From Methylocystaceae bacterium (GTDB taxonomy: Bacteria > Pseudomonadota > Alphaproteobacteria > Rhodospirillales > Terasakiellaceae), in the NCBI GenBank assembly GCA_013373265.1, contig JABXIC010000150.1:1-59542 (forward strand): DNA of 59,542 nucleotides, in the 5' to 3' direction. Made by a program: the position numbers and the translations under genes. Each line of letters starts with the position of its first letter. Within the stretch, counting starts at the first letter, position 1. The notes under the pieces are model-generated. The model did no database searches. It was not told the origin of the DNA and saw only the letters and a list, made by a program, of their open reading frames with translations. Of this stretch, positions 6,366-51,071 are shown one piece after another.

Positions 6366-7226
6366 ATGCAAACTACGGAAGTTTCAAGTTTAACGACATC
6401 ACCTCCACCGACACTGGCAGGTCAAGAAATCCTGAGTGTAGACGGATTATCTTTATCCTTTGGCGGTGTCAAAGCCTTACAGCATGTTTCTTTCAGCGTC
6501 GAAGAAGGTTCTGTCACTTCGGTCATTGGGCCAAACGGTGCAGGAAAAACATCACTCTTTAACTCCATTTCAGGCTTTTATACGCCCAGTGAAGGCAACG
6601 TCAATTTCTTAGGCAAAAACGTCAACAAAATTGCCCCGCCTGATCGTGCTGCCATGGGGATGGCTCGGACATTCCAAAACATCGCCTTGTTTAAAGGTAT
6701 GACCGTTTTGGACAACATTAAGCTCGGCCGTCACGCTCATCTGAAAACAAACATCTTGGAAGCCTTGTTTTATTTTGGCCCGGCACAACGTACCGAAGCG
6801 GCGTTGCGTCGGGAAATTGAAGAAAAAATCATCGATTTTCTGGAAATAGACCATATCCGCAACAGCTCTGTTGGCGCCCTTTCTTACGGTCTGCAAAAAC
6901 GTGTGGAACTGGCGCGCGCTTTGGCGATGCAGCCTAAAATCCTGTTATTGGACGAACCTGTTGCCGGCATGAACCGCGAAGAAACAGAAGACATGGCCCG
7001 CTTCATTCTGGATGTGAAAGAAGAATGGGGCGTGACCGTCTTGATGGTGGAACATGACATGGGCTTGGTCATGGACATATCAGACCATGTGGTCTGTCTC
7101 AATTTCGGGCAAGTTATCACCCAAGGCCTGCCTGATGAAGTACAGGGCCATCCCGATGTTATTTCAGCTTATCTGGGGTCCGGCGATGTGACGGCGCTTC
7201 GTAAAAAATTCAAGGAAGGGAGATAA
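6366..7226 (+). CDS. livG: LIV-type ABC transporter ATP-binding protein LivG
   Basis: This 286-residue cytoplasmic ATPase energises a branched-chain-amino-acid-type (HAAT) importer. Walker A GPNGAGKTS, signature LSYGLQKRVELARAL (a variant of LSGGQ common in LivG proteins of this clade) and Walker B ILLLDEPVAGMNREE are visible; the HD switch is VEHDMGLVM. The N-terminal 20 residues before the ABC domain are extra. It is followed after four bases by livH. The neighbouring acyl-CoA genes suggest the cargo is a carboxylic acid rather than leucine, but the ATPase cannot tell. Confidence 0.9.
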   Translation: MQTTEVSSLTTSPPPTLAGQEILSVDGLSLSFGGVKALQHVSFSVEEGSVTSVIGPNGAGKTSLFNSISGFYTPSEGNVNFLGKNVNKIAPPDRAAMGMARTFQNIALFKGMTVLDNIKLGRHAHLKTNILEALFYFGPAQRTEAALRREIEEKIIDFLEIDHIRNSSVGALSYGLQKRVELARALAMQPKILLLDEPVAGMNREETEDMARFILDVKEEWGVTVLMVEHDMGLVMDISDHVVCLNFGQVITQGLPDEVQGHPDVISAYLGSGDVTALRKKFKEGR

Positions 7227-7230
7227 CGTT

Positions 7231-8109
7231 ATGGATTGGTTATTCTTTTCCGAAATCGGACTTGCTGGCATTGGTACAGGTGGCTTGTATGCCGTTTCAG
7301 GACTGGCTTTTGTCCTCATCTACAAAGCCACCCGCGTTGTCAATATGGCCATTGGCGAGATGATGATGATGGGCGCTTATATCTTTATCGGATTTAGCGT
7401 TGGTCTGGCCCTACCCGTCTGGGCCAGCATTCCCCTTGCCGTTATCGTTTCAGGCATCATGGGCGGCGTGATTGAACGCGCGATAATCCGTCCCATGTTG
7501 GGTGAAAATGCCATTTCCGTCTTTATGGTAACAATAGGTCTGGGCAGCGTGCTTGTCGGTCTGGTGGAAATCATCTGGGGCGCTGACCCTAGACGCCTCA
7601 TCGAATTTGTCCCCAGTGATCCGATCTTTATCGGGGAAGCTTACCTGTCCCCCAAAGTCGGCTATAGCTTTGCTGTCGCCGCCGTCATCGTCGGGCTTTT
7701 CTTGGTCATTTTCAGAACATGGCGCGGCGGTGTTGCCTTGCGGGCGACTGCGGGCGATCAAGCAGCGGCTTATTCTATGGGTATTAATGTCCCCAAAGTC
7801 TTTTCTCTGGTCTGGATCATTGCCGCCATGATTGCCGCTGTTGCAGGCATTCTGGTCGGGTCCATCGGCGGGGTTTCCCCCAACATGGGTGTTTATGGTC
7901 TGTCCGTCCTTGTCGTTGTTATCATTGGCGGTTTGGACAGTCTGCTTGGTGCCCTCATCGCCGGAATTTTTGTCGGACTTATTGAAACCTATGCAGGTGC
8001 CTTTCTTGGTGGAGAATACAAAATGCTGGCAACGTTCAGCTTGTTAGTCTTCGTCTTGATTGTCCGCCCCTATGGCCTTTTCGGCACACATGAAATTGAA
8101 CGGTTGTAA
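7231..8109 (+). CDS. livH: LIV-type ABC transporter permease LivH
   Basis: This 292-residue inner-membrane permease has about eight hydrophobic helices and the family motifs GLAFVLIYKATRVVNMAIGE near the N-terminus and RATAGDQAAAYSMGINVPKV (the cytoplasmic coupling loop contacting the ATPase) near residue 170. It pairs with LivM encoded five bases downstream. A GGAAGGGAG ribosome site lies in the end of livG. Full length for the family. Confidence 0.9.
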   Translation: MDWLFFSEIGLAGIGTGGLYAVSGLAFVLIYKATRVVNMAIGEMMMMGAYIFIGFSVGLALPVWASIPLAVIVSGIMGGVIERAIIRPMLGENAISVFMVTIGLGSVLVGLVEIIWGADPRRLIEFVPSDPIFIGEAYLSPKVGYSFAVAAVIVGLFLVIFRTWRGGVALRATAGDQAAAYSMGINVPKVFSLVWIIAAMIAAVAGILVGSIGGVSPNMGVYGLSVLVVVIIGGLDSLLGALIAGIFVGLIETYAGAFLGGEYKMLATFSLLVFVLIVRPYGLFGTHEIERL

Positions 8110-39045: not shown

Positions 39046-40458
39046 ATGACGTGCCACACATATAAATGGTTGCAAAACCTTCAAGAATCCTTCGACACCT
39101 GTGACATAAATGATGGTGCCGTCCTTTCATTTCATCACCATCTACGCAACGGTGACATTATCATGAAAAAAGTTCTTGATATCGCTTCACAAAGAAACCT
39201 TAAAGGACTTGGCATTGCTATCAGTTCTATATTTCCCATTCATGCACCCATGGAAAAATATATTCAAACAGAACTCATCAGTAAGATTTGGACCGGATAT
39301 ATCAAAGGGCCTGTTTCTGTCCCCCTTATGTCTCAAACATTACCATACCCTGTCACCATCCAATCCCATGGGGGACGTGCACGTGCCATTGAAGCCCGGA
39401 ATTTAAAAATAGATGTCGCCTTTGTGGCAGCACCTTGTGCGGATCAACAAGGAAATTTAACAGGAGCGTTAGGACCCTCAGCCTGCGGTCCGTTGGGTTA
39501 TCCTATGGTGGATGCAAAATATGCAACCCATTGCGTTGGTCTGGTCGATCACATAAGCAACACCCCTTTGCCCATGGTAGAAATCCCCCATACACAACTG
39601 GATTATCTAATCAAAGTTGATAGCATTGGGGACCCTAAAGGTATTGTGTCCGGCACCACACGCGCCTCCCAACATCCTGATGACTTAAAAATTGCCCAAA
39701 TGGTTTCAGAAGTGGTTTTGGCTTCTGGTTTGATGAAAGACGGATTTTCTTTTCAAACCGGCGCTGGTGGCATTTCACTGGCCAGTGTCAGCGCCATTGG
39801 TCAAAAAATGCGCGCACATGACGTAAAAGGCAGCTTTATTTCTGGCGGCATCTGCCAATCCCATGTCGATCTCGTAAAAGCTGGATTGTTCGACAAAATT
39901 TATGACGTACAATGTTTTGATCACGGTGCTGTAGCATCCTTTGCCCGTGATCGCTGGCATCACGCCATGTCTGCGCGTCAATATGCAAGCCCACTTTGTT
40001 CAAATAATATCGTGGATCAATTGGATGTCACCATTCTTGGCGCAACGCAAATTGATGCCGACTTCAACGTCAATGTCACAACAGCTGGTGACGGGCAAAT
40101 CATCGGTGGCCCCGGTGGGCATCCAGATACATCCGAAGGCGCAAAGCTTACAATTATCACGACCAAACTCACAGGCGGTGGTTTTGCCAAGATTGTCGAT
40201 AACGTCCATACCATCACCACTGAAGGCAAACACGTCGATGTACTCGTTTGTGAAGAAGGAATCGCCGTCAACCCTGCAAACTCGGAACTTTTAGAAAGAT
40301 TACAAACACATGGCTTAAAACCACTTGATATCCATCAACTCATCAATAAAGCACAAAAACAAGCACCTCATCAAAATGTCCCCAAAGGTGAAGGCCCTGT
40401 CATTGCAACCATAGAAAATCGCCATGGTGATTGTGTTGACGTCATTCGTGCGACTTGA
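39046..40458 (+). CDS. citF: Citrate lyase alpha subunit-like CoA/ACP transferase (solitary)
   Basis: This 470-residue protein aligns by eye along its whole length with CitF, the citrate:acetyl-ACP transferase subunit: AVLSFHHHLRNGDIIMKKVL near residue 25, IQSHGGRARAIEARNLKIDV, SFQTGAGGISLASVS near 235, GGICQSHVDLVKAGLFDKI, VQCFDHGAVASFARD and DADFNVNVTTAGDGQIIGG. It lacks roughly 40 N-terminal residues compared with the E. coli protein. The partner genes citC, citD, citE, citX and citG are absent around it. It may therefore act as a free CoA transferase on citrate or a related acid. Family assignment is strong; the actual reaction is uncertain. Confidence 0.85.
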   Translation: MTCHTYKWLQNLQESFDTCDINDGAVLSFHHHLRNGDIIMKKVLDIASQRNLKGLGIAISSIFPIHAPMEKYIQTELISKIWTGYIKGPVSVPLMSQTLPYPVTIQSHGGRARAIEARNLKIDVAFVAAPCADQQGNLTGALGPSACGPLGYPMVDAKYATHCVGLVDHISNTPLPMVEIPHTQLDYLIKVDSIGDPKGIVSGTTRASQHPDDLKIAQMVSEVVLASGLMKDGFSFQTGAGGISLASVSAIGQKMRAHDVKGSFISGGICQSHVDLVKAGLFDKIYDVQCFDHGAVASFARDRWHHAMSARQYASPLCSNNIVDQLDVTILGATQIDADFNVNVTTAGDGQIIGGPGGHPDTSEGAKLTIITTKLTGGGFAKIVDNVHTITTEGKHVDVLVCEEGIAVNPANSELLERLQTHGLKPLDIHQLINKAQKQAPHQNVPKGEGPVIATIENRHGDCVDVIRAT

Positions 40459-40534: not shown

Positions 40535-41920
40535 ATGGAAAACCAAGAACAAACAGAAGAAATCATCGTCTCTGAAAATGAAGCGGCCTTCGACGCGCTA
40601 CTGCAAGCGCTCGAAACAAAAGATACAGAGTCCCTGATTGAAATCGTCGACAGCATGACGATCAGTGATGCCTTGCGTTATTTCTTATGGTTGGATGATG
40701 CGCAAAAAGAAACCTTTCTCAATTTATTACCCCATGACCTGTCCGCTGAATTAATTGCTGAACTGCCACTCGAACATGCTGGCGGCGTTGTTGAACAGTT
40801 GGAAGAAGACATCGCCGTCGGCATCCTTTCAGAAATGGAAACGGACCTTCAGGCCGACGTTCTTGGGGAACTTACAAGCGAAAATGCTGACTCCATTTTG
40901 GCCAAAATGGATCAACAAGAAGCTGAAGAAGTCCGTAACCTCGTTCAATATGACGAAAACACGGCTGGTGGTTTGATGAAAAGCGAAGTCTTTTCCTTTC
41001 ATACCACAGATACGGTTGGCCTGATCTTGCGCACCATGGCCTCGGAAGATGAAGAATTTGAACGTTTCCGGGGGCAACACCCTTACGTTATTGATGAAAA
41101 TGATAAGTTGGTCGGTGTAGTTTCTTTGCGCACCATGTTATCGGAAAAGCGATCTGTTAAACTAGCTGACGTCATGGTCCCGGCGGTTTCCCTGCCCGTA
41201 AACATGCATATCGACGATATTGAAGACATTTTTATTAAGGAAGATTTCTTAACCTTACCTGTCCTTGACGCCAACAATGTATTACTTGGCGTGGTCACCC
41301 GTACCACCTTGCAAGATGCCGTCTATGAAAAGTCTGAAGCTGACAACATGAAACGTCATGGGGTGGTTGGGGATGAACTCCGCTCCATGCCACTTTTCTT
41401 GCGTTCACGGCGCCGCCTTGCTTGGTTAAGTGCCAATATCGTGCTGAACATCCTTGCTGCCAGCGTCATTTCTTCTTACGAAGACACATTAACCGCCGTC
41501 ATCGCCATTGCGGTTTTCCTGCCGATGGTATCTGACATGAGCGGCTGTTCCGGTAATCAGGCTGTGGCCGTTAGCCTGCGTGAATTGGCCTTAGGGACAA
41601 TCAAACCCATCGATATGGCCCGCGTCTGGTCTAAAGAAGTCAGCCTTGGCATGATTAATGGACTGGTGCTGGGGATGCTGATCGGTGTGGTTGCCTGGGG
41701 CTGGAAAGGCAACCCATTTTTAGGGGTCGTGATCGGTGCTGCCTTAATGATCAATACAGTCATTGCCGTTTCAATCGGCGGTGTCGTGCCTTTACTGCTG
41801 AAACGTTTCAATCAAGACCCGGCGGTTGCTTCCGGTCCCTTATTAACGACAATCACCGATATGGCGGGTTTCTTCCTTGTCCTGAGCTTGGCAAGTCTGA
41901 TGATGCCGTTTCTCGTTTAA
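40535..41920 (+). CDS. mgtE: Magnesium transporter MgtE
   Basis: This is a 461-residue inner-membrane Mg2+ channel. The N-terminal acidic helical domain (about residues 20-140) and two CBS domains (about 145-265; HPYVIDENDKLVGVVSLR and LPVLDANNVLLGVVTRTTL) form the cytoplasmic Mg2+ sensor; five helices follow. The pore region carries the family motif LPMVSDMSGCSGNQAVAVSLRE (quoted as LPMVSDMSGCSGNQA). The full length is present. The stop codon lies inside a perfect 18-base palindrome, and a decayed transporter remnant follows. It stands 76 bases after the citF-like gene and may have its own promoter. Confidence 0.93.
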   Translation: MENQEQTEEIIVSENEAAFDALLQALETKDTESLIEIVDSMTISDALRYFLWLDDAQKETFLNLLPHDLSAELIAELPLEHAGGVVEQLEEDIAVGILSEMETDLQADVLGELTSENADSILAKMDQQEAEEVRNLVQYDENTAGGLMKSEVFSFHTTDTVGLILRTMASEDEEFERFRGQHPYVIDENDKLVGVVSLRTMLSEKRSVKLADVMVPAVSLPVNMHIDDIEDIFIKEDFLTLPVLDANNVLLGVVTRTTLQDAVYEKSEADNMKRHGVVGDELRSMPLFLRSRRRLAWLSANIVLNILAASVISSYEDTLTAVIAIAVFLPMVSDMSGCSGNQAVAVSLRELALGTIKPIDMARVWSKEVSLGMINGLVLGMLIGVVAWGWKGNPFLGVVIGAALMINTVIAVSIGGVVPLLLKRFNQDPAVASGPLLTTITDMAGFFLVLSLASLMMPFLV

Positions 41921-42239: not shown

Positions 42240-42268
42240 GCGCGAGAAAATAACCACAAAAAACTATT

Positions 42269-42287
42269 GCAAGTCATTCTCAATTGC
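42269..42287. promoter_or_regulatory. Fur box-like site 1 (GCAAGTCATTCTCAATTGC)
   Basis: The site is a near-palindromic 19-mer whose complement, GCAATTGAGAATGACTTGC, closely matches the classical Fur box form GCAAATGAGAATNATTTGC. It lies 48 bases before the imelysin ATG, in the expected promoter zone of an iron-uptake operon. Confidence 0.75.
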
Positions 42288-42303
42288 TTTAGATGTGTTG
42301 TTA

Positions 42304-42322
42304 TTGATAACCATTCGCATTA
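42304..42322. promoter_or_regulatory. Fur box-like site 2 (TTGATAACCATTCGCATTA)
   Basis: GATAACCATTCGCATTA matches the GATAATNATTNNCATTATC-type Fur consensus in most positions and lies 12 bases before the imelysin ATG, 16 bases after site 1. Two tandem sites suggest tight repression by Fur-Fe. Fur itself is not in the window. Confidence 0.65.
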
Positions 42323-42334
42323 ACAAGGCTCCTT

Positions 42335-43612
42335 ATGAAATTATTTAGTCTCTTAAAATCTACTGCCGCTGTCAGCATGTTGATGGTCGCATCCACAACA
42401 GCACAAGCTGCCCCGCCAACCGTGCCTGAAATCGTCAAGAACTATGCCGATATCGCCTTGGCTATGTATCAAGATTCTTTAAGCGAAGCTACGAAGCTTA
42501 AATCAGCTGTCACTCAATTGATTGCAGCCCCCACACAAGAGAACTTGGAAGCTGCACGTGACGCATGGATTAAAGCGCGCGTTCCTTACCAACAAACAGA
42601 AGCATTTCGCTTTGGTAATCCGGTGGTTGATGATTGGGAAGGTAAAGTAAACGCATGGCCCTTGGATGAAGGTCTCATCGATTATGTCGATCCTTCCTAC
42701 GGCAAGTCTTCAGATGAAAACCCGGCTTATACACTCAACGTTATTGCCAACAAAAAAGTGCGCATTGGCCCTAAAGTAATTGATGCCACCAACATCACGC
42801 CAGCACTTCTTTCCGGTACGTTGCATGAAGCACAAGAAGTTGAAGCCAACGTGGCAACGGGCTATCACGCCATTGAATTTATGCTATGGGGTCAAGACCT
42901 GAATGGCACCAAAGCCGGGGCTGGCAACCGCCCGGCGACTGACTTTAGCCTCAAAAACTGCACCCATGGCAATTGTGATCGCCGTATTCAATATTTGAAC
43001 GCCGCAACAGACTTGCTCATTGACGACTTGAAAGAAATGGTTGCCTCATGGTCTGAAGGTGGTAAGGCCCGCACAGACATTCTTGCCAAAAGCGACAAAG
43101 ATGCCCTTTCAACCATTTTGACCGGCATCGGCTCCTTATCTTACGGGGAATTGGCCGGTGAACGTATGAAACTTGGCGTCTTGCTTCATGATCCAGAAGA
43201 AGAACATGACTGCTTTTCTGACAACACACACAATTCACACTTCTATAACCAAGTCGGCATGACCGCCATTTATAATGGTCGCTATTCTCGCGTAGACGGA
43301 TCCGTTTTGTTTGGCCCAAGTGTTGCCGATCTTGCTATGGCCAAAGCCCCCGCTGCCAATCAACGTTTTGAATCACTGCTTAACGCAACAAGCGTTAAAA
43401 TGCAGGTGATGAAAAACACCGCTGATAGCGGAAAAATGGCCTACGACCAAATGCTGGCAAACGGCAACCTTGAAGGCAACAAAATCATTCTAGACGTTGT
43501 CGACGGTTTGGTTAATCAAACACGTGGTGTTGAACAGGTCGTAAATGATCTCGGGTTAAAAATTCAAGTTGAAGGATCAGATAGTTTAGATAATCCTACT
43601 GCTGTGAATTAA
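42335..43612 (+). CDS. Imelysin-family iron-regulated periplasmic protein (IrpA/ICMP-like)
   Basis: This 425-residue secreted protein of the imelysin (peptidase M75) family is involved in iron uptake. Signal peptide at residues 1-26 with cleavage after AQA. The family motif GxHxxE is intact in GYHAIEFMLWGQDLNG near residue 185; other conserved parts are ARDAWIKARVPYQQTEAFRF near 75 and GSLSYGELAGERM near 265, then DNTHNSHFYNQVGM. Proteolysis is doubtful for this family; metal binding like EfeO is more likely. It is the first gene behind two Fur-box-like sites and is followed 44 bases later by the oxidase. Confidence 0.9.
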   Translation: MKLFSLLKSTAAVSMLMVASTTAQAAPPTVPEIVKNYADIALAMYQDSLSEATKLKSAVTQLIAAPTQENLEAARDAWIKARVPYQQTEAFRFGNPVVDDWEGKVNAWPLDEGLIDYVDPSYGKSSDENPAYTLNVIANKKVRIGPKVIDATNITPALLSGTLHEAQEVEANVATGYHAIEFMLWGQDLNGTKAGAGNRPATDFSLKNCTHGNCDRRIQYLNAATDLLIDDLKEMVASWSEGGKARTDILAKSDKDALSTILTGIGSLSYGELAGERMKLGVLLHDPEEEHDCFSDNTHNSHFYNQVGMTAIYNGRYSRVDGSVLFGPSVADLAMAKAPAANQRFESLLNATSVKMQVMKNTADSGKMAYDQMLANGNLEGNKIILDVVDGLVNQTRGVEQVVNDLGLKIQVEGSDSLDNPTAVN

Positions 43613-43656
43613 TATCTAATGGCATCTCTTTGGGGTACGGGAAAAGGAGACACACC

Positions 43657-45111
43657 ATGCCTATATCTAGAAGAAGTGTCATTGGCGGGGGCGCGGCATT
43701 AGCCGCGCTTTCCGCTTATCCACTTCTTGCACAACCAGCCTTAAGTACGGAGCGGCCTTCGCTTCCAAAAAGAAAAGAACCAATCTTAAACGATGCTGTG
43801 GTGAATGCCCGCCTCATCGCCAAGGAACGCCCGCGCAAACTCTTTGCCGATGGGCCTGTCTTGCCTTTCTGGACCTACAGCGATGATCCGTTATCCATCA
43901 TCAAAGTTCCTAAAGGGGGGCGCTTAAAAACCCATTTTACCAACGAATTGCCGGAACACACTTCCATCCACTGGCATGGTATTCGTCTGCCCAATCATAT
44001 GGACGGCGTGCCCTATGTGACCCAAAAGCCGGTTTATACGGGGGAAAGCTACCACTATGACTTTACCCTGCCTGACAGCGGTCTCTTCCCCATCCATTCC
44101 CATTGCAACACAGTCGAACAACTTGGGCGCGGCCTTGCCGGTGCTTTGTTGGTCACTGGCGATGAAACCCGACCCTATGATGATGACGTGCTTTGTGTCA
44201 TCAAAGATTGGCGCTTGGGCGAAAATGGCGAATTTCTGGATTTTTTCACCGATGATGGCGCCAGTCGCGGCGGGACATTTGCAACTGTGCGTACGGCTAA
44301 TTTAGAAAAAGTCCCCGTCATGAAAGTTCCTGCCAATGCCGATGTCCGCCTGCGTATCATGAGCGTCAATAGCTCCCGTGTTGGACAAATCGGTATTGAA
44401 GGTCACAACGGTGCAGCCATCATCTCCACCGACGGTCAAGCAGTTGCTCCCTTCCCCTTAAGCACATGGCGTTTGGGATCAGCCATGCGTATGGATGTTG
44501 TGGTACGCACCCCAAAAAGCGGCGGTGAAGCCATCGTCTATGACTATTTCGCCCCCAAGCCCATTGTCATTGCCAAATTAAAATCTGTCGGACCGAACCT
44601 GCAACGTGGTGACTTTGACCCCGCCCCGCTTTATGCCCCGGATATTGCTGAACCGGACTTATCCAACGCCATTTACAAACGCGTAGATTTCACTGCAACG
44701 GCAACACCGTCTTATGTGGAACTGCCAAACGGGGAAGAGCTGAACTATGCAGACAGCCTATGCCTTTCTGACAAAACCTATTGGGCAATGAACAAACAAA
44801 CATGGCCGGAAGATGGGCATCAGAAACTACCCGCACCAATCTTAAACTTAAGCAAAGGGCGGACGTACGTGATCGAATTGGTCAATGGGACCCCCCATAT
44901 GCACCCCATTCATATTCACGGTCATACTTTCCTTTATCTCAAATCAAATAAAGAATCATTGCCGAAACATTTTGCAGATACCGTACTGATCAAACCGAAA
45001 GAACGTGTCCATGTGGCCTTTGTCGCCGACAATCCAGGAGATTGGATGTTTCACTGCCATATCATCGAACACGCCGAAAGCGGTATGATGAGCATTCTCA
45101 GAGTCGCCTAA
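43657..45111 (+). CDS. Multicopper oxidase, Tat-exported
   Basis: This is a 484-residue periplasmic copper oxidase. Start is the ATG behind AAAAGGAG. The N-terminus MPISRRSVIGGGAALAAL is a Tat signal. Three cupredoxin domains carry the copper ligands HWHGIRLPNHMDG (near residue 105), IHSHCNTVEQ (near 145), HPIHIHGHTF (near 420) and FHCHIIEHAESGMM (near 465). The second motif departs from the usual WYHSH/HPHxH form, with PIHSHCNT. In this Fur-linked operon the enzyme probably oxidises Fe2+ or a siderophore-like or copper substrate; that is inference. The next gene starts at the base after its stop. Confidence 0.9.
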   Translation: MPISRRSVIGGGAALAALSAYPLLAQPALSTERPSLPKRKEPILNDAVVNARLIAKERPRKLFADGPVLPFWTYSDDPLSIIKVPKGGRLKTHFTNELPEHTSIHWHGIRLPNHMDGVPYVTQKPVYTGESYHYDFTLPDSGLFPIHSHCNTVEQLGRGLAGALLVTGDETRPYDDDVLCVIKDWRLGENGEFLDFFTDDGASRGGTFATVRTANLEKVPVMKVPANADVRLRIMSVNSSRVGQIGIEGHNGAAIISTDGQAVAPFPLSTWRLGSAMRMDVVVRTPKSGGEAIVYDYFAPKPIVIAKLKSVGPNLQRGDFDPAPLYAPDIAEPDLSNAIYKRVDFTATATPSYVELPNGEELNYADSLCLSDKTYWAMNKQTWPEDGHQKLPAPILNLSKGRTYVIELVNGTPHMHPIHIHGHTFLYLKSNKESLPKHFADTVLIKPKERVHVAFVADNPGDWMFHCHIIEHAESGMMSILRVA

Positions 45112-46269
45112 ATGAAACAAATATATATTATAGCCCTCCCTTTCTTGGTCGGCACCACACCTTTGCAGGCCGAATCCCTTGATTTCGCCCTTGGTAAAGC
45201 CTTGTTTGATCGCCCCTGGACATCGGCACCGGCTTCGACCCAAGCCACAGATGGCCTTGGCCCACTTTTTAACGCACGATCCTGCGTTTCCTGCCATCCC
45301 CAAAATGGGCGTGGTAAAATCACGAAAGACAAAGACGGTGCCATTGGCGGGATCGGTTATGTTTTACGTTTAGGGAATGCAGACGGTACAGGCGACCCCG
45401 TCTACGGACACCAACTGCAAACCAACGCAATTCATGGTCAAAAAGCTGAAGGGCGCGTCTTTCTAAAAAATCACACTTATCAACTCATAGACTTGGCCTA
45501 CGGCCCGATGGATATATCCACCAGATATGCCGGACGGTTGTCACAACCCCTACATGGCTTAGGATTGCTGGAACAAGTCAGTGATGAAACAATTTTATCT
45601 CATGCTGACCCGGATGACCTTGATGGGGACGGCATTTCCGGGCGCCCAAATATCATCAACGGGCAAATTGGTCGATTTGCATGGAAAGCGACGGCCCCCA
45701 CCTTACGCATACAGGCGGCAAACGCTTTTTTCAATGATATCGGCATGTCGACACCAGTTCACCCACAACATGCAGGCGATTGTACCCCCAGCCAAACAGA
45801 TTGTCTTAACGGTCCCCACGGCAATAGCCCACAGTTTGAAAATCTGGAAATTGATAGCCAAATGCTGAACCTGATCAACAGCTATTTGAAAGGTTTACGC
45901 GCCCCAGTTTACCAACCCGCAGAAGGTATCGACCTTTTCAAAAACGTGGGCTGTGCAAGTTGCCACTTACCAGAGCTTCCTTTGCCCAATGGTGATGTCA
46001 TTCACCCCTTTAGTGACCTCTTACTTCACGATATGGGGCAGGCCTTGGCGGACGGCATCAAAGAAGGCGATGCCGACGGGCAGGAATGGCGCACTCAACC
46101 CTTATGGGGCAGCCAGGAAACAAAACTCTTTTTACATGATGGACGTGCAAAAACCGTTGAAGAAGCCATCAACTGGCATGGCGGCGAAGCAACGAAAGCC
46201 AAAGAAAACTTTCTTGCCCTGCCCGCAGCCGACAAACAACAACTCATTACCTTTTTGAACAGCCTTTAG
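45112..46269 (+). CDS. Di-heme oxidoreductase (DHOR) family c-type cytochrome
   Basis: This periplasmic diheme protein has 385 residues. Short signal peptide (MKQIYIIALPFLVGTTPLQA), first haem motif CVSCH near residue 63 and second CASCH near 285. The region LDGDGISGRPNIINGQIGRF and the end FLHDGRAKTVEEAINWHGGE are typical of the family once called thiol oxidoreductase. It commonly occurs between imelysin genes in iron operons, as here. It likely passes electrons to or from the iron-handling partners. The ATG abuts the oxidase stop, and the next gene begins nine bases after its stop. Confidence 0.9.
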   Translation: MKQIYIIALPFLVGTTPLQAESLDFALGKALFDRPWTSAPASTQATDGLGPLFNARSCVSCHPQNGRGKITKDKDGAIGGIGYVLRLGNADGTGDPVYGHQLQTNAIHGQKAEGRVFLKNHTYQLIDLAYGPMDISTRYAGRLSQPLHGLGLLEQVSDETILSHADPDDLDGDGISGRPNIINGQIGRFAWKATAPTLRIQAANAFFNDIGMSTPVHPQHAGDCTPSQTDCLNGPHGNSPQFENLEIDSQMLNLINSYLKGLRAPVYQPAEGIDLFKNVGCASCHLPELPLPNGDVIHPFSDLLLHDMGQALADGIKEGDADGQEWRTQPLWGSQETKLFLHDGRAKTVEEAINWHGGEATKAKENFLALPAADKQQLITFLNSL

Positions 46270-46278
46270 GACTTTCCA

Positions 46279-47292
46279 ATGAAACGCTTACCTTATCTTT
46301 TGGGACTTTGTTTACTCCTCCCCCTGTCTGCACAAGCTGCCCCGACAAAACAGGAAATATCCTTAAAGGTTTTGACGGACTTTGTTATTCCGGCATATGA
46401 AAACCTCGCTGTACAAGCCACTGAACAAAAAAAAGTCTGGCAAACAACCTGTAACGCAGCAGACTTGAAAGAAAGTTTTCAAAAAACATCGGATGCTTGG
46501 GCCAGCGTTCAAAATATTAATTTTGGCCCCGTCATCTTGCTCTTGCGCCGTGACCGTATGTACCACTGGCCGGAACGCAGAAACGCCGTTTCAAAAAGCT
46601 TGAACCACCTACTGGCTGACAAAAATAATGAAAAGGCACTCACCCACAAGTATTTCTCAGCCTCCAGTGTCGCCGTTCAGGGACTTCCTGCCATGGAACG
46701 ATTGCTCTATACAGACCTGCTCAAAGATGACTGGTCTTGTAAAGTCGGACGCACCATTGCCGACAATATAGCTGAAATCGCAACGGGTACGGTCAAAGAT
46801 TGGAAAGACACCCTTACCTACATCAAAGAGGGGAAATCCCACCCGATCTATTTTGAATCCATGGACGAAGTCGCCATTCGCCTGTTTACCGAACTTCTGA
46901 CCGGCTTTCAGATGATCTCCGATCAAAAGGTTGCTCTGCCCATGAGCACCAGCATCACAAAAGCAAATGGCAAACGTGCTGAAGGATGGCGCAGCCATCG
47001 CTCCACACGTTACATCCAGAAGAACGCCCAAGCCCTGATGGATTTCTCTAAGCCCTTCATGTCTTTTTTACCTGAGCCGGACCGCAAGGAACTATTGGAT
47101 CAATTCGCTAAATTTGAAAAAGCCACCGATGATTTACCACCCTCCATCAAAGACGCGGTGAGCGATGAAAAGGGGCGTGAAAATTTAAAAAGCTTCCTGT
47201 CCACGGCCCGCACAACCCGTAACTTGATCGTAGACAAATTCACCAAACAACTCGATTTAACTATCGGCTTTAATAGTCTGGACGGGGACTAA
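46279..47292 (+). CDS. Imelysin-family protein 2 (lacks the His motif)
   Basis: This is a 337-residue exported protein related to imelysin. Signal peptide at residues 1-20 (cleavage after AQA). The body has FGPVILLLRRDRMYHWPERR near residue 75 and AVQGLPAMERLLYTDLLKDD near 130; the latter is the place of GxHxxE, with GLPAMERLL instead, so the His is missing. A C-terminal helical half follows. Two Cys residues (TTCNAAD and WSCKVGR) may form a disulfide. It follows DHOR and precedes the DUF1513 gene by two bases, a conserved order in iron operons. Confidence 0.87.
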   Translation: MKRLPYLLGLCLLLPLSAQAAPTKQEISLKVLTDFVIPAYENLAVQATEQKKVWQTTCNAADLKESFQKTSDAWASVQNINFGPVILLLRRDRMYHWPERRNAVSKSLNHLLADKNNEKALTHKYFSASSVAVQGLPAMERLLYTDLLKDDWSCKVGRTIADNIAEIATGTVKDWKDTLTYIKEGKSHPIYFESMDEVAIRLFTELLTGFQMISDQKVALPMSTSITKANGKRAEGWRSHRSTRYIQKNAQALMDFSKPFMSFLPEPDRKELLDQFAKFEKATDDLPPSIKDAVSDEKGRENLKSFLSTARTTRNLIVDKFTKQLDLTIGFNSLDGD

Positions 47293-47294
47293 TC

Positions 47295-48341
47295 ATGCAA
47301 CGCAGAACCTTTATTTCCGCCTCTTTGGGGGCATTGGGCAGTGTCTTCTTTTCTCCCCTGCTTGAAGCCGCGACTATACACAAAGGCTGGCTTAACGGCT
47401 TTAAAGACGATCAAGGGCGTTATGGCATTGCCTATATTGATGAAAGCTTTAACGCAACGCCGCTTGTCTACACGCCCATCCGCTTACACGGGATAACCAA
47501 ACACCCCACAAAAGCCGACATTGTCGCCCCGGCGCGTAGACCGGATATGCAAATGTTTGTCTTTGATATGGAAAGAAAAGCTTTGCGGATCATTGAATCT
47601 GACGAAGGCCGTCACTTTTATGGTCATGGAGTATATTCAACGGATGGCAAATTGTTCTACACCACCCAAAACGCCTATGACGAAGAAAAAGGTGTGATTG
47701 GGGTCTATGATGTCGATCAGGGGTACAAGAAAGTTGCTGAATGGGACAGCGGCGGCATCGGCCCCCATGAACTACGCTTGTACAAAAACCAATTGATCAT
47801 CGCCAACGGTGGTATCCTAACCCACCCTGATATGGGACGTGCCAAACTGAATATTGACAGTATGGCCCCGAACCTGACTTATCTTGACCTTGCAACGGGA
47901 CAAATTAACAATCAACTCAGCCTCCCCCAAGACCTTCATCAACTTTCCATCCGTCATATGGATGTGACACAAGATGGAACTGTCTTTGTCGGCTTGCAAG
48001 ACCAGTTGGAACATCGAAGGGATTTACCTTTGGTCTGGAAAACTCAAAATGGGAAACTACAAGAAATGACGCAACCCACAGAGGGGTGGCGTATCTTCAA
48101 TGGTTATGTCGGCAGTGTCTGCGCCAATCAAAATGGCCTGTGTGTGTCTTCACCACGGGGCAATGTGGTTCACTTTTGGGGACAAAAGATGAAAGCCCTC
48201 GCGCAAAAAGATGTCTGTGGTTTGGCCCAATGTGGAAAATCTGATTTTCTGATCACCACCGGCGCGGGCACAATCATGAACTTTAGTCATAATGGCCCCC
48301 ATTCTGCACTGCATTTTGATAATCACTGCACGGCTATTTAG
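47295..48341 (+). CDS. DUF1513 family periplasmic protein
   Basis: This 348-residue protein has repeating beta-rich units like a seven-bladed propeller. The N-terminus MQRRTFISASLGALGSVFF is an export signal with a Tat-like RRTF. Conserved features are FYGHGVYSTDGKLFYTTQN near residue 110, GVIGVYDVDQGYKKVAEWDS, GIGPHELRLYKNQLIIANGG near 155 and LHQLSIRHMDVTQDGTVFVG near 215. This family is regularly the last gene of imelysin-DHOR-imelysin iron operons; its molecular role is not known. Stop is a TAG; a weak hairpin follows. Confidence 0.88.
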   Translation: MQRRTFISASLGALGSVFFSPLLEAATIHKGWLNGFKDDQGRYGIAYIDESFNATPLVYTPIRLHGITKHPTKADIVAPARRPDMQMFVFDMERKALRIIESDEGRHFYGHGVYSTDGKLFYTTQNAYDEEKGVIGVYDVDQGYKKVAEWDSGGIGPHELRLYKNQLIIANGGILTHPDMGRAKLNIDSMAPNLTYLDLATGQINNQLSLPQDLHQLSIRHMDVTQDGTVFVGLQDQLEHRRDLPLVWKTQNGKLQEMTQPTEGWRIFNGYVGSVCANQNGLCVSSPRGNVVHFWGQKMKALAQKDVCGLAQCGKSDFLITTGAGTIMNFSHNGPHSALHFDNHCTAI

Positions 48342-48405: not shown

Positions 48406-49716
48406 ATGACAGAAACACAAGAAAAACAAGAACAGCCGTTTCAGCTCAAAGGGTTATTTTACAGTCGGATCATTCCCGGCTTGATCATATCCCTTTTGGT
48501 GCTGCTTGTTTTTGCCTTTTTCGGTTCCAAGACACTGGTTAAAAGCATTTATCTAAGCTTTGCGGTTAACCGTGCTCAAGCCATTGAACTGAACATTAAA
48601 AAGCAAGCCCCGGATGCGTGGGAAGAACTGTTGGCAACACGCCATCCGGACTTATTTTTCCAATCCCCACAAGGTTTGAAACTCCATAAAGTCATCGATG
48701 ATATCGTCGTTGATACCCGCACGGATAAATTCAAGCTCTATAACAAAGACCGGGTTATGCTTTTCAGCCATCAAACCGAAAGGATTGGTAGTTTTGAAAA
48801 CAACCCGGACTTGGACCCGTTGTTTCGGGAAGGTAAATCACTTGTTATTGCCAAGGAAAAAGAAGGCTTAAACGAACTCTATGTCCCGCTTTTTAATAAA
48901 GATGGATCAATGCGCGCTATTTTTGAACTCTACGAAAAACGCATTTTCCTTGATTCTATCTTGCTGGAAAGCTTCCTACCGACCATCATTGTACCGACCA
49001 TCCTGTTTTTGATCCTCTTTGCTTATATGTTAGGGATCGTAAGAAAAGCACAAATTGATATCGATTTGCGTGCCACTGCTTTGATGTCTGTGCGCAAAAA
49101 ACTGGAACAATTTGTCTCTTTCAGCACTGTTCAAGCCGCAACGCTTTTTTCTGAATCAGGTGAAATTGAACCCCAGCGCATCGCCACAACCATTTATTAT
49201 TCAGATGTGCGTAGCTTCACCAGCCTTGCAGACACACTGCCCCCGACAGAAGTGGTCAATTATCTCAACACCGTCATGTCCATCCAGATTGATATCATCA
49301 AGAAACATAACGGGGATATCGACAAGCTGATTGGTGACGCCGTTCTTGCCCAGTTTGACGGGACAGACGGTGAAAAACGAGCTGTAACAGCAGCCGTAGA
49401 AATCATCACTGCGCTTCAAAAGCTTGACCTTGCCCGTGGCATTGGTATCGGCATACAGGCTGGGGATGTTCTGGCCTGTGCCGTTGGGTCAAAGGACCGC
49501 AAAGACTTCACCATCATTGGGGATACGGTCAATTTGGCCGCGCGTCTGTGTTCTGCGGCGCAAGTTTGGGAAATAGTTGTGGAAGAACGAACCCTTCGTC
49601 ATAGCGGACAACGCAGTGACGCCTTTATCGGCCCGGAAGTTATTCAGGTCAAAGGTCATGAACATCCGATTGAAATCTTCAGATGGCATGGACAAGAAGA
49701 AACGTCCGCCTCATAA
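48406..49716 (+). CDS. Membrane-bound class III adenylate cyclase
   Basis: This 436-residue protein would make cAMP at the inner membrane. A helix at about residues 25-47, a periplasmic sensor segment of some 140 residues of no recognised family, a second helix near 190-212, then the catalytic domain without a HAMP linker. Metal-binding Asp residues are in YYSDVRSFTSLAD and LIGDAVLAQF; the adenine-selecting Lys (DKLIGD) and Asp (RKDFTIIGD) fit adenylate rather than guanylate; the transition-state Asn is in VNLAARLCSAA. GGAGAGGGGAAG precedes the ATG. It lies 64 bases after the iron operon on the same strand. Confidence 0.88.
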   Translation: MTETQEKQEQPFQLKGLFYSRIIPGLIISLLVLLVFAFFGSKTLVKSIYLSFAVNRAQAIELNIKKQAPDAWEELLATRHPDLFFQSPQGLKLHKVIDDIVVDTRTDKFKLYNKDRVMLFSHQTERIGSFENNPDLDPLFREGKSLVIAKEKEGLNELYVPLFNKDGSMRAIFELYEKRIFLDSILLESFLPTIIVPTILFLILFAYMLGIVRKAQIDIDLRATALMSVRKKLEQFVSFSTVQAATLFSESGEIEPQRIATTIYYSDVRSFTSLADTLPPTEVVNYLNTVMSIQIDIIKKHNGDIDKLIGDAVLAQFDGTDGEKRAVTAAVEIITALQKLDLARGIGIGIQAGDVLACAVGSKDRKDFTIIGDTVNLAARLCSAAQVWEIVVEERTLRHSGQRSDAFIGPEVIQVKGHEHPIEIFRWHGQEETSAS

Positions 49717-49736: not shown

Positions 49737-51071
49737 TTAGCGCATTTCAAACAGTTCCTGATGAAAGCGTGAACTGTCCAACCCATTTTTGGTGAAGTCT
49801 TTTTTCAGAGCTTGTCCAAATCCTTTTGGTCCACAAAACCAAACGCTGGATTTATCCCAATCCGGCACCTGTTTTTTGATTTGTTGTGCGTCCAGAAGAC
49901 CATCTTCAGGTGTGCGGATCAGGTGCAAGGTAACACCTGCGTCTTTGGCATAAGCACGGATGGTTTCAATAAAACCTTCATCAGGTGATTGCGTACTGTA
50001 AAACAAATCAACAACCTGTTTTGTTTTCTCACGCGCCAATCCTTGCAAGCGCGATACAAAGGGCGTGATGCCAATGCCACCGGCAACCCAGATTTGTCTA
50101 TCTTGTTCCCCCTTAAAATCAAACTGACCATAAGGGCCTTCAACACGTACAAATGCGCCTGTTTGCAACAAACTGGGCAATTGTCCGGTATAATCCCCCA
50201 ACCCTTTGATCATAAACTCCAGTTTACCATCATTCTTCCAGGAAGAAGAAATGGTAAAAGGGTGTGGCCCTTCATTTGGGTCAAGCGTTAGAAAAGCAAA
50301 TTGCCCTTCTTTATGACCCGGCCATTGATCAACGATATGAATAGAAATTTTAAGAACGTTGTTATCTTTAAAGTGCGTAACGCCTGTCACCTGACCTTTA
50401 TGACGACGGTTTTCACCGATCTTTCTAAAGAGGGAATAAAAGGCGCCAATGGTGCCGCCGACAAGCAAAGGCATCATAACAACAGATGTCACCGTTCCCC
50501 AATAAGCTGAATTGATCAAGATGAAAGAATGAAACACCAACGCAAGATAAGCCAACGCAATAAAACGATGGGTTTTGAAGAAATATTTGTAAGGGAAAAA
50601 CTTGATCAGTGCCAAAATCATCAACACCAAAGCAACATAGAACGCCCATTCACCAACACCTTCAGCCGTGTGGCGCATGCTGCGAAAGAATTGTTCGATG
50701 GTATCAAGTGCTTGTCTTCCACCATTATGTTTGCGTTCTGGTCGGGCCAGTAAGCCCAATTGCACAGCCCATTTTGGCCCTTGCGCCCAGAGATAATGAG
50801 CAATGGAAACGACCAGCCCGGTAATACCGAGCCATTTGTGTAGCCTGTAAGATTTATCCAGTCCACCAACCCATGTTTCTATTTGAGCCGGACGAATGGC
50901 AATTATCATGGCGACACTCATCACCGTGATACCGATCAAGCCCGTATAGTTCACCATAGCTGCCCTGAGCGCAAAGAAACTATAGGTCTGATTAAAAAAA
51001 GGATCCGTCGTCAACCATAGTGCGCTGATCACAACGATGAGGAATACATAGATATATTTAATATTTTTCAT
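49737..51071 (-). CDS. Ferric reductase-like membrane flavocytochrome
   Basis: This 444-residue protein joins a six-helix ferric-reductase haem domain (residues about 1-215; haem-type His in VSIAHYLWAQ, KTHRFIALAYL and VFHSFIL) to a cytoplasmic ferredoxin-NADP-reductase module. FAD contact is HPFTISSSW near 270; NAD(P) contacts are WVAGGIGITPFVSRLQG near 325 and VWFCGPKGFGQAL near 415. It should carry electrons from NAD(P)H through FAD and haems across the membrane, reducing Fe3+ or another acceptor. It lies tail-to-tail with the cyclase and iron operon, which supports an iron role without proving it. Confidence 0.88.
   Translation of the reverse strand: MKNIKYIYVFLIVVISALWLTTDPFFNQTYSFFALRAAMVNYTGLIGITVMSVAMIIAIRPAQIETWVGGLDKSYRLHKWLGITGLVVSIAHYLWAQGPKWAVQLGLLARPERKHNGGRQALDTIEQFFRSMRHTAEGVGEWAFYVALVLMILALIKFFPYKYFFKTHRFIALAYLALVFHSFILINSAYWGTVTSVVMMPLLVGGTIGAFYSLFRKIGENRRHKGQVTGVTHFKDNNVLKISIHIVDQWPGHKEGQFAFLTLDPNEGPHPFTISSSWKNDGKLEFMIKGLGDYTGQLPSLLQTGAFVRVEGPYGQFDFKGEQDRQIWVAGGIGITPFVSRLQGLAREKTKQVVDLFYSTQSPDEGFIETIRAYAKDAGVTLHLIRTPEDGLLDAQQIKKQVPDWDKSSVWFCGPKGFGQALKKDFTKNGLDSSRFHQELFEMR

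Follow-up and report, generated by a model that had tools for sequence, protein, structure and literature searches.

What is a multicopper oxidase doing inside an operon of imelysins, and does that operon serve iron? The question is raised by a contig of the Methylocystaceae bacterium assembly GCA_013373265.1 (JABXIC010000150.1, positions 1 to 59,542; "the window" means this whole stretch of 59,542 nucleotides). Five genes on its forward strand, spanning positions 42335 to 48341, encode in order imelysin 1, a three-domain multicopper oxidase, a di-haem oxidoreductase (DHOR), imelysin 2 and a DUF1513 protein, as named by Pfam profile searches. The gaps between them measure 44, 0, 9 and 2 bp, with the oxidase gene abutting the DHOR gene. 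The original prediction, made from the letters of the window, had described five exported and nearly contiguous proteins behind two tandem Fur-like boxes, and the domains and the spacing bear this out. Judged from sequence, the locus is very probably a periplasmic iron operon under Fur-type control, with a copper oxidase that is functional and accessory. Its features are the following.

42268-42288, forward strand: Fur-like box 1, TGCAAGTCATTCTCAATTGCT, matching 17 of the 21 positions of the consensus TGCAAATGATTCTCATTTGCA, a match equalled by 0 of 200 shuffles; recognisable in congeners.
42305-42319, forward strand: Fur-like box 2, TGATAACCATTCGCA, matching 12 of the 15 positions of the 7-1-7 consensus TGATAATCATTATCA (p 0.015); recognisable in congeners.
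42335-43612, forward strand: imelysin 1 of the ICMP/PA4370 type, with the motif GYHAIE (GxHxxE) and a Sec-type signal peptide (PF09375, Peptidase_M75, 1e-80; PDB 7xrx, ICMP, E 1.7e-114).
43657-45111, forward strand: three-domain multicopper oxidase with a signal like that of twin-arginine translocation (Tat) substrates (RRSVIG), three Pfam Cu-oxidase domains and the copper ligands.
45112-46269, forward strand: DHOR (PF06537/DUF1111, 2.4e-56), short form, with CxxCH at residues 58-62 and 281-285.
46279-47292, forward strand: imelysin 2 of the IPPA/PA4372 type, with the motif His replaced by Pro (GLPAME; PF09375 2.8e-27; PDB 3pf0, IPPA, E 1.1e-10).
47295-48341, forward strand: DUF1513 protein of the PA4373 type, a predicted seven-bladed beta-propeller with a twin-arginine signal and five invariant His (PF07433 2.8e-94; model pLDDT [predicted local distance difference test] 93.3).

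Of two possible start codons of the oxidase gene, the TTG at 43630 and the ATG at 43657, the ATG is most likely the one used: it gives MPISRRSVIG, with its Tat-like signal, and has a good ribosome-binding site. No promoter-like site was found in the 44-bp gap before the oxidase gene, and across the region such sites were as frequent as expected from shuffled sequence.

The 21-base Fur consensus was set before the scan. Of 87 related loci, 44 had a match to the Fur motif at p <= 0.02 in front of imelysin 1, versus 1 of 53 control regions taken from upstream of oxidases in unrelated loci. In four congeners, both boxes were recognisable at similar positions, and the stretches around them were among the better-conserved upstream parts, the sequence farther upstream having diverged. 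Because the boxes are enriched over shuffles and control regions and are conserved in congeners, the data support a Fur-type operator in front of imelysin 1; the predicted Fur-type control of the locus thus holds at the level of the sites.

Without the oxidase, the operon is already known, albeit with an obscure function. Xu et al. (2011) described the Fur-regulated operon PA4370-PA4373 of Pseudomonas aeruginosa, which encodes two imelysins along with a DUF1111 protein, and distinguished GxHxxE from GxxxxE imelysins (PMC3143127). The window has the same order on one strand, GxHxxE imelysin, DHOR, GxxxxE imelysin and DUF1513, with the oxidase added, and VC1264-1267 (irpA) of Vibrio cholerae is the counterpart of PA4370-4373 (the icmP operon). 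In Aliivibrio salmonicida, the iron-limitation transcripts include orthologues of VC1264/1265 (PMC4324432). The suggestion that the locus is an undescribed system is therefore not supported, and the oxidase is its new part. In our literature search, two or more of PA4370-4373 were named together only in PMC3143127; no paper named imelysin together with DUF1513, and none linked imelysin and a multicopper oxidase in one operon.

How regularly does the oxidase accompany the operon? A scan of GTDB genomes gave 26 oxidase loci at 46-70 % identity, 25 of which had all five genes in identical order; the next-best oxidases (about 47 % and below) lay outside this operon. With G374 and two congeners added, there were 31 distinct five-gene loci from at least 11 alphaproteobacterial genera, all in the order imelysin 1, oxidase, DHOR, imelysin 2, DUF1513, the oxidase always lying between imelysin 1 and DHOR. 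The five families thus co-occur, and since the oxidase occupies the same slot in 31 loci and the gap before it holds no promoter-like site, it is neither confined to the window nor marked as a separate unit with its own promoter. In an even sample of 289 Alphaproteobacteria, the class sample, 42 strong DUF1513 loci were inspected, and 5 of them contained the oxidase; in other classes it was found in 0 of 15 DUF1513 loci. The oxidase adjoined imelysin 1 and DHOR in all six genomes of the class sample that had the operon-type enzyme, and relocation to another site in four-gene genomes was rejected on this ground. One genome (G124, L003/L122), which supplied the 26th locus of the scan, has a reduced form with imelysin 1, oxidase and DHOR; its contig carries neither imelysin 2 nor DUF1513, and no DUF1513 was detected anywhere in the genome.

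In maximum-likelihood trees, the oxidase-plus operons clustered strongly, with 2 to 4 state changes per gene tree as opposed to about 22 in shuffles. This clustering fits a history in which the oxidase was gained once or a few times and then lost from some operons; the trees of imelysin 2 and DUF1513 show some mixing (L006, L015). In both L006 and L015, imelysin 2 groups with oxidase-minus sequences, which suggests replacement of a single gene inside the operon. Losses were evident within the genus of the window itself. Two congeners (G524 and G528) carry the intact five-gene operon; in two others the remaining four genes are kept and the slot contains only the scar of a decayed oxidase. In G527 the scar (L153, 9201-9560) consists of an N-terminal remnant (tblastn 2.9e-23) and a scrap of the C terminus; in G525 it is shorter (L152, reverse complement of 7640-7860; tblastn 5e-7). 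A further congener, G526, had no imelysin at all. The oxidase has apparently been lost from L120 too. Because G525 and G527 retain the other four genes, the oxidase is an accessory and dispensable part of the operon; its description as an insertion into an imelysin-DHOR-imelysin-DUF1513 operon proved correct in that it is an addition to the four-gene operon.

The oxidase could be a neutral passenger without functional coupling, as most four-gene operons do without it, two congeners have only a decayed copy and L120 has none. We consider this very unlikely, since the oxidase sits in the identical slot with all ligands intact in at least 11 genera, abuts DHOR in the window and is accompanied by an altered N terminus of DHOR. 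In the class sample, the first haem region of DHOR is preceded by an N-terminal segment (GGAAT..AFS..SANM.F) in 36 of 37 oxidase-minus alphaproteobacterial loci. None of the oxidase-plus loci has the segment, nor do L120, L152 and L153, the three apparent oxidase losers. The DHORs of L085, L109 and L117 were called short by the automatic pattern, and on inspection a variant of the segment was present. The gain of the oxidase thus coincides with the loss of the DHOR segment; because the oxidase may have been gained only once, the coincidence amounts to a correlation within one lineage and is not statistical proof of coupling.

The slot between imelysin 1 and DHOR also holds other genes. In L141 (2017-6121), it contains a 4-kb insert ending in an ApbE flavin transferase, so the slot apparently accepts other redox genes as well. 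Several genomes encode a second di-haem peroxidase (CCP_MauG) within the imelysin operon or next to it, and in the window genome there is a copy away from it:

L004, 9460-10611: CCP_MauG peroxidase.
L152, 10286-11431, reverse strand: CCP_MauG peroxidase.
L153, about 6568-7854: CCP_MauG peroxidase.
L126, 10330-11496: CCP_MauG peroxidase.
L127, 536-1708, reverse strand: CCP_MauG peroxidase.
G000:C141:213-1364 (window genome): CCP_MauG peroxidase away from the operon.

Within the genus of the window, the peroxidase gene adjoins the operon in the oxidase-minus species, whereas the oxidase-plus G524 and G528 have no close copy. The adjacent peroxidase may be a functional alternative to the oxidase.

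Is the oxidase itself an iron or a copper enzyme? The ligands of the T1, T2 and T3 copper sites (H105, H107, H147, H149, H416, H419, H421, H466, C467, H468, H472 and M477) are invariant in 17 aligned oxidases, and the axial T1 ligand of the operon oxidase is Met. A Cys pair, C150/C369, is common to the operon oxidase and its sister group and otherwise absent; it likely forms a disulfide. Compared with CueO of Escherichia coli, the oxidase has no Met-rich insert, and its T412 and H414 are aligned with D439 and M441 of the CueO Cu(I) site. In NCBIfam, no equivalog model scored above its cut-off for the oxidase (CueO model, 118.6 versus a cut-off of 525). With substrate-copper residues missing and scores far below the NCBIfam cut-offs, CueO/CopA copper resistance was rejected as the identity of the enzyme. 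In a betaproteobacterial metagenome-assembled genome (MAG; L028, 7038-12083), a cytochrome c, a sister-group oxidase, a PilZ-domain protein and FeoB are encoded in a row, a further iron context for this oxidase subfamily. The Fur boxes, the missing Cu(I) site of CueO and the sister-group oxidase near FeoB together favour iron over copper as the physiological context of the oxidase.

Copper could nevertheless be the metal handled by the whole module, by oxidation or capture of Cu(I), with Fur control reflecting cross-talk between copper and iron. Every oxidase molecule needs four copper atoms, going by its family; MbnH-type enzymes are linked to copper homeostasis; and EfeM has a stated preference for copper, iron and zinc, all of which it binds (PMC9174327). 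With Fur-like boxes in the promoter, no copper exporter or chaperone conserved in the flanks, and neither the substrate-copper residues nor the Met-rich insert of CueO, this reading is highly improbable. A laccase-like activity on phenolic or catecholic iron chelators (siderophores, plant or humic phenolics), by which iron would be released or protected and then bound by the imelysins, fits the absence of a Met-rich segment to cap the T1 site, the laccases found besides "multicopper oxidases" among the nearest solved sequences, and the many carriers from soil or rhizosphere (Azospirillum, Microvirga). We regard it as unlikely, for no chelator gene is conserved in the flanks and the oxidase also occurs in MAGs and in genomes beyond the rhizosphere genera. 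An Fe2+-activated "laccase" of Methylobacterium extorquens (PMC9456135) seemed relevant and was set aside because no sequence could be tied to the operon oxidase family.

The partners of the oxidase were examined for sites that could bind or oxidise metal. In imelysin 1, the GYHAIE motif is conserved in oxidase-plus and oxidase-minus relatives. Both imelysins had been proposed to bind iron; because imelysin 2 lacks the His of the metal motif, iron binding may hold for imelysin 1 only. A third imelysin-like gene was seen in L123 (5059-6246, reverse strand), between imelysin 2 and DUF1513. The original prediction had named only the copper oxidase as exported by Tat; all five proteins are indeed exported, but DUF1513 carries a twin-arginine motif as well, with R3/R4 present in 61 of 62 sequences. 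The DUF1513 model is a beta-propeller with seven blades by strand order, and its nearest PDB matches are beta-propeller folds. Five His (H65, H111, H158, H221 and H344) are invariant in 62 of 62 sequences; in the model, H111, H158, H221 and H344 lie in the presumed innermost strands with H65 next to them, and H65, H111, H158 and H221 stand six residues before the following turn, in one register. According to the model, the five His may be arranged around the axis of the propeller and bind a metal or cofactor, and DUF1513 may be a metalloprotein; invariant His can also be structural in propellers. The His-ringed propeller is the first concrete biochemical hypothesis for DUF1513 that we came across.

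The model of DHOR (pLDDT 92.8) has the MauG and CcpA families as its nearest folds, with TMq up to 0.46 and a root mean square deviation (rmsd) of about 10 A; because the TM-scores are below 0.5 and the rmsd is near 10 A, the match to MauG is at the superfamily level only. If DHOR were MauG-like, it could, with or without the oxidase, mature an operon partner (imelysin or DUF1513) by oxidation of side chains, as MauG does with methylamine dehydrogenase and MbnH with MbnP. MauG complexes are the commonest fold matches (TMq 0.44-0.46) and MbnH (6e1c) is also among them; DUF1513 offers a propeller with invariant His on its inner strands; and DHOR and DUF1513 are both retained in the operon after loss of the oxidase. 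The low structural similarity speaks against such a maturation, as do the failure to identify an invariant Trp/Tyr pair marking a target site and the genome with imelysin 1, oxidase and DHOR without DUF1513 or imelysin 2, and we hold it to be quite unlikely.

How could the metal enter the cell? That the set includes neither a permease nor a TonB receptor was confirmed, and neither is conserved in the flanks of the operon in relatives. A hidden conserved flank partner (permease, TonB receptor, ferric reductase or cyclase) was rejected as none occurred outside Azospirillum synteny. The window genome yielded neither FTR1 (PF03239) nor, at a strict threshold, FeoB; FTR1 was found in 4 of 14 oxidase-plus genomes, and FeoB, by the strict criterion, in 3 of 16. 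Both were absent in 9 of the 14 oxidase-plus genomes tested for both, the window genome included, and both were rejected as the universal importer, since most carriers lack them. For the window genome, which has four TonB-receptor plug domains, the absence of FTR1 and FeoB is provisional because the genome is 90 % complete. The neighbours of the operon in the window are:

39046-40458: citrate lyase alpha subunit (CitF), directly upstream together with the following gene; no link to the operon elsewhere.
40535-41920: MgtE-type divalent cation transporter, upstream; no link to the operon elsewhere.
48406-49716, forward strand: membrane protein containing an adenylate/guanylate cyclase domain, downstream of the operon at a distance of 64 bp; neighbourhood not kept in relatives.
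49737-51071, reverse strand: ferric-reductase-like flavocytochrome (PF01794 plus FAD and NAD domains), close to the operon; not kept there in relatives.

The mechanism that we favour, to which we give an even chance, is an ICMP/IrpA-type module in which a periplasmic system for iron binding and redox chemistry has the oxidase as a ferroxidase-like extra driven by O2. When iron is scarce, Fur would leave the two boxes and the five exported proteins would be made. In the periplasm, the oxidase would oxidise Fe(II), or a complex of it, with O2, the GxHxxE/acidic site of imelysin 1 would take up the oxidation product, and DHOR and the DUF1513 propeller would carry out a second redox or metal-handling step. 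The metal would finally go to an importer whose gene lies elsewhere; as FTR1 and FeoB are usually missing, this would probably be a ferric importer. Here we infer iron as the substrate, the redox direction and the hand-over alike. Several observations weigh against this mechanism. Four residues before the T1 His, the operon oxidase has Thr where CueO and Fet3p have Asp. The oxidase was lost in G525 and G527, with the other four genes intact, and in L120, which means that the module works without it. The three metals bound by EfeM make iron less than certain, and PIBO and IPPA gave no heme or ferric-ion binding in thermofluor assays (PMC3143127).

A more elaborate version, tentative and somewhat unlikely, is an O2-driven periplasmic iron relay in which a Fet3-like oxidase without an FTR1 or FeoB permease would be coupled to the di-haem protein and to the Tat-exported DUF1513 propeller, whose five His would make up a metal site not described before; imelysin 1 would be the acceptor. 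The slot between imelysin 1 and DHOR would take interchangeable redox add-ons: the oxidase, ApbE-type flavin loading in one locus and, in another, a CcpA/MauG peroxidase directly after the oxidase.

The combination of imelysin, DHOR and DUF1513 is one of the widespread iron-starvation operons of Proteobacteria. One genus with oxidase-plus, oxidase-decayed and operon-free species, together with a matching change in DHOR, offers a direct handle on the redox step of the operon. If the oxidase is a ferroxidase, the operon would be a periplasmic device for iron oxidation and capture that is independent of the known ferrous permeases.

How does the locus compare with known systems? With CueO/CopA, the window oxidase shares the three-domain, Tat-exported architecture and the axial Met at T1, but it has no Met-rich insert, has Thr and His in place of D439 and M441, contains the extra invariant Cys pair and lies in a Fur-like rather than a copper-type promoter context. 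EfeUOB/EfeUOM likewise combines a protein with an M75 (imelysin) domain and a haem enzyme and is linked to iron, whereas the window operon lacks the EfeU/FTR1 permease, a cupredoxin domain on imelysin and the DyP peroxidase EfeB, its DHOR being an unrelated di-haem c-type protein. Fet3p-Ftr1p of yeast also ties a multicopper oxidase to iron acquisition, a tie suggested in the window by the Fur-like sites; there is no Ftr1 partner in the window operon or genome, Thr stands four before the T1 His, and the ferroxidase role is only proposed. The four-gene operons of other Alphaproteobacteria differ in the extra N-terminal segment of their DHOR, which is absent from that of the window. PA4370-4373 and VC1264-1267 have no multicopper oxidase between imelysin 1 and DHOR, but they share with the window operon the GxHxxE imelysin, the di-haem DHOR/DUF1111 protein, the GxxxxE imelysin, a fourth gene at the DUF1513 position and Fur control.

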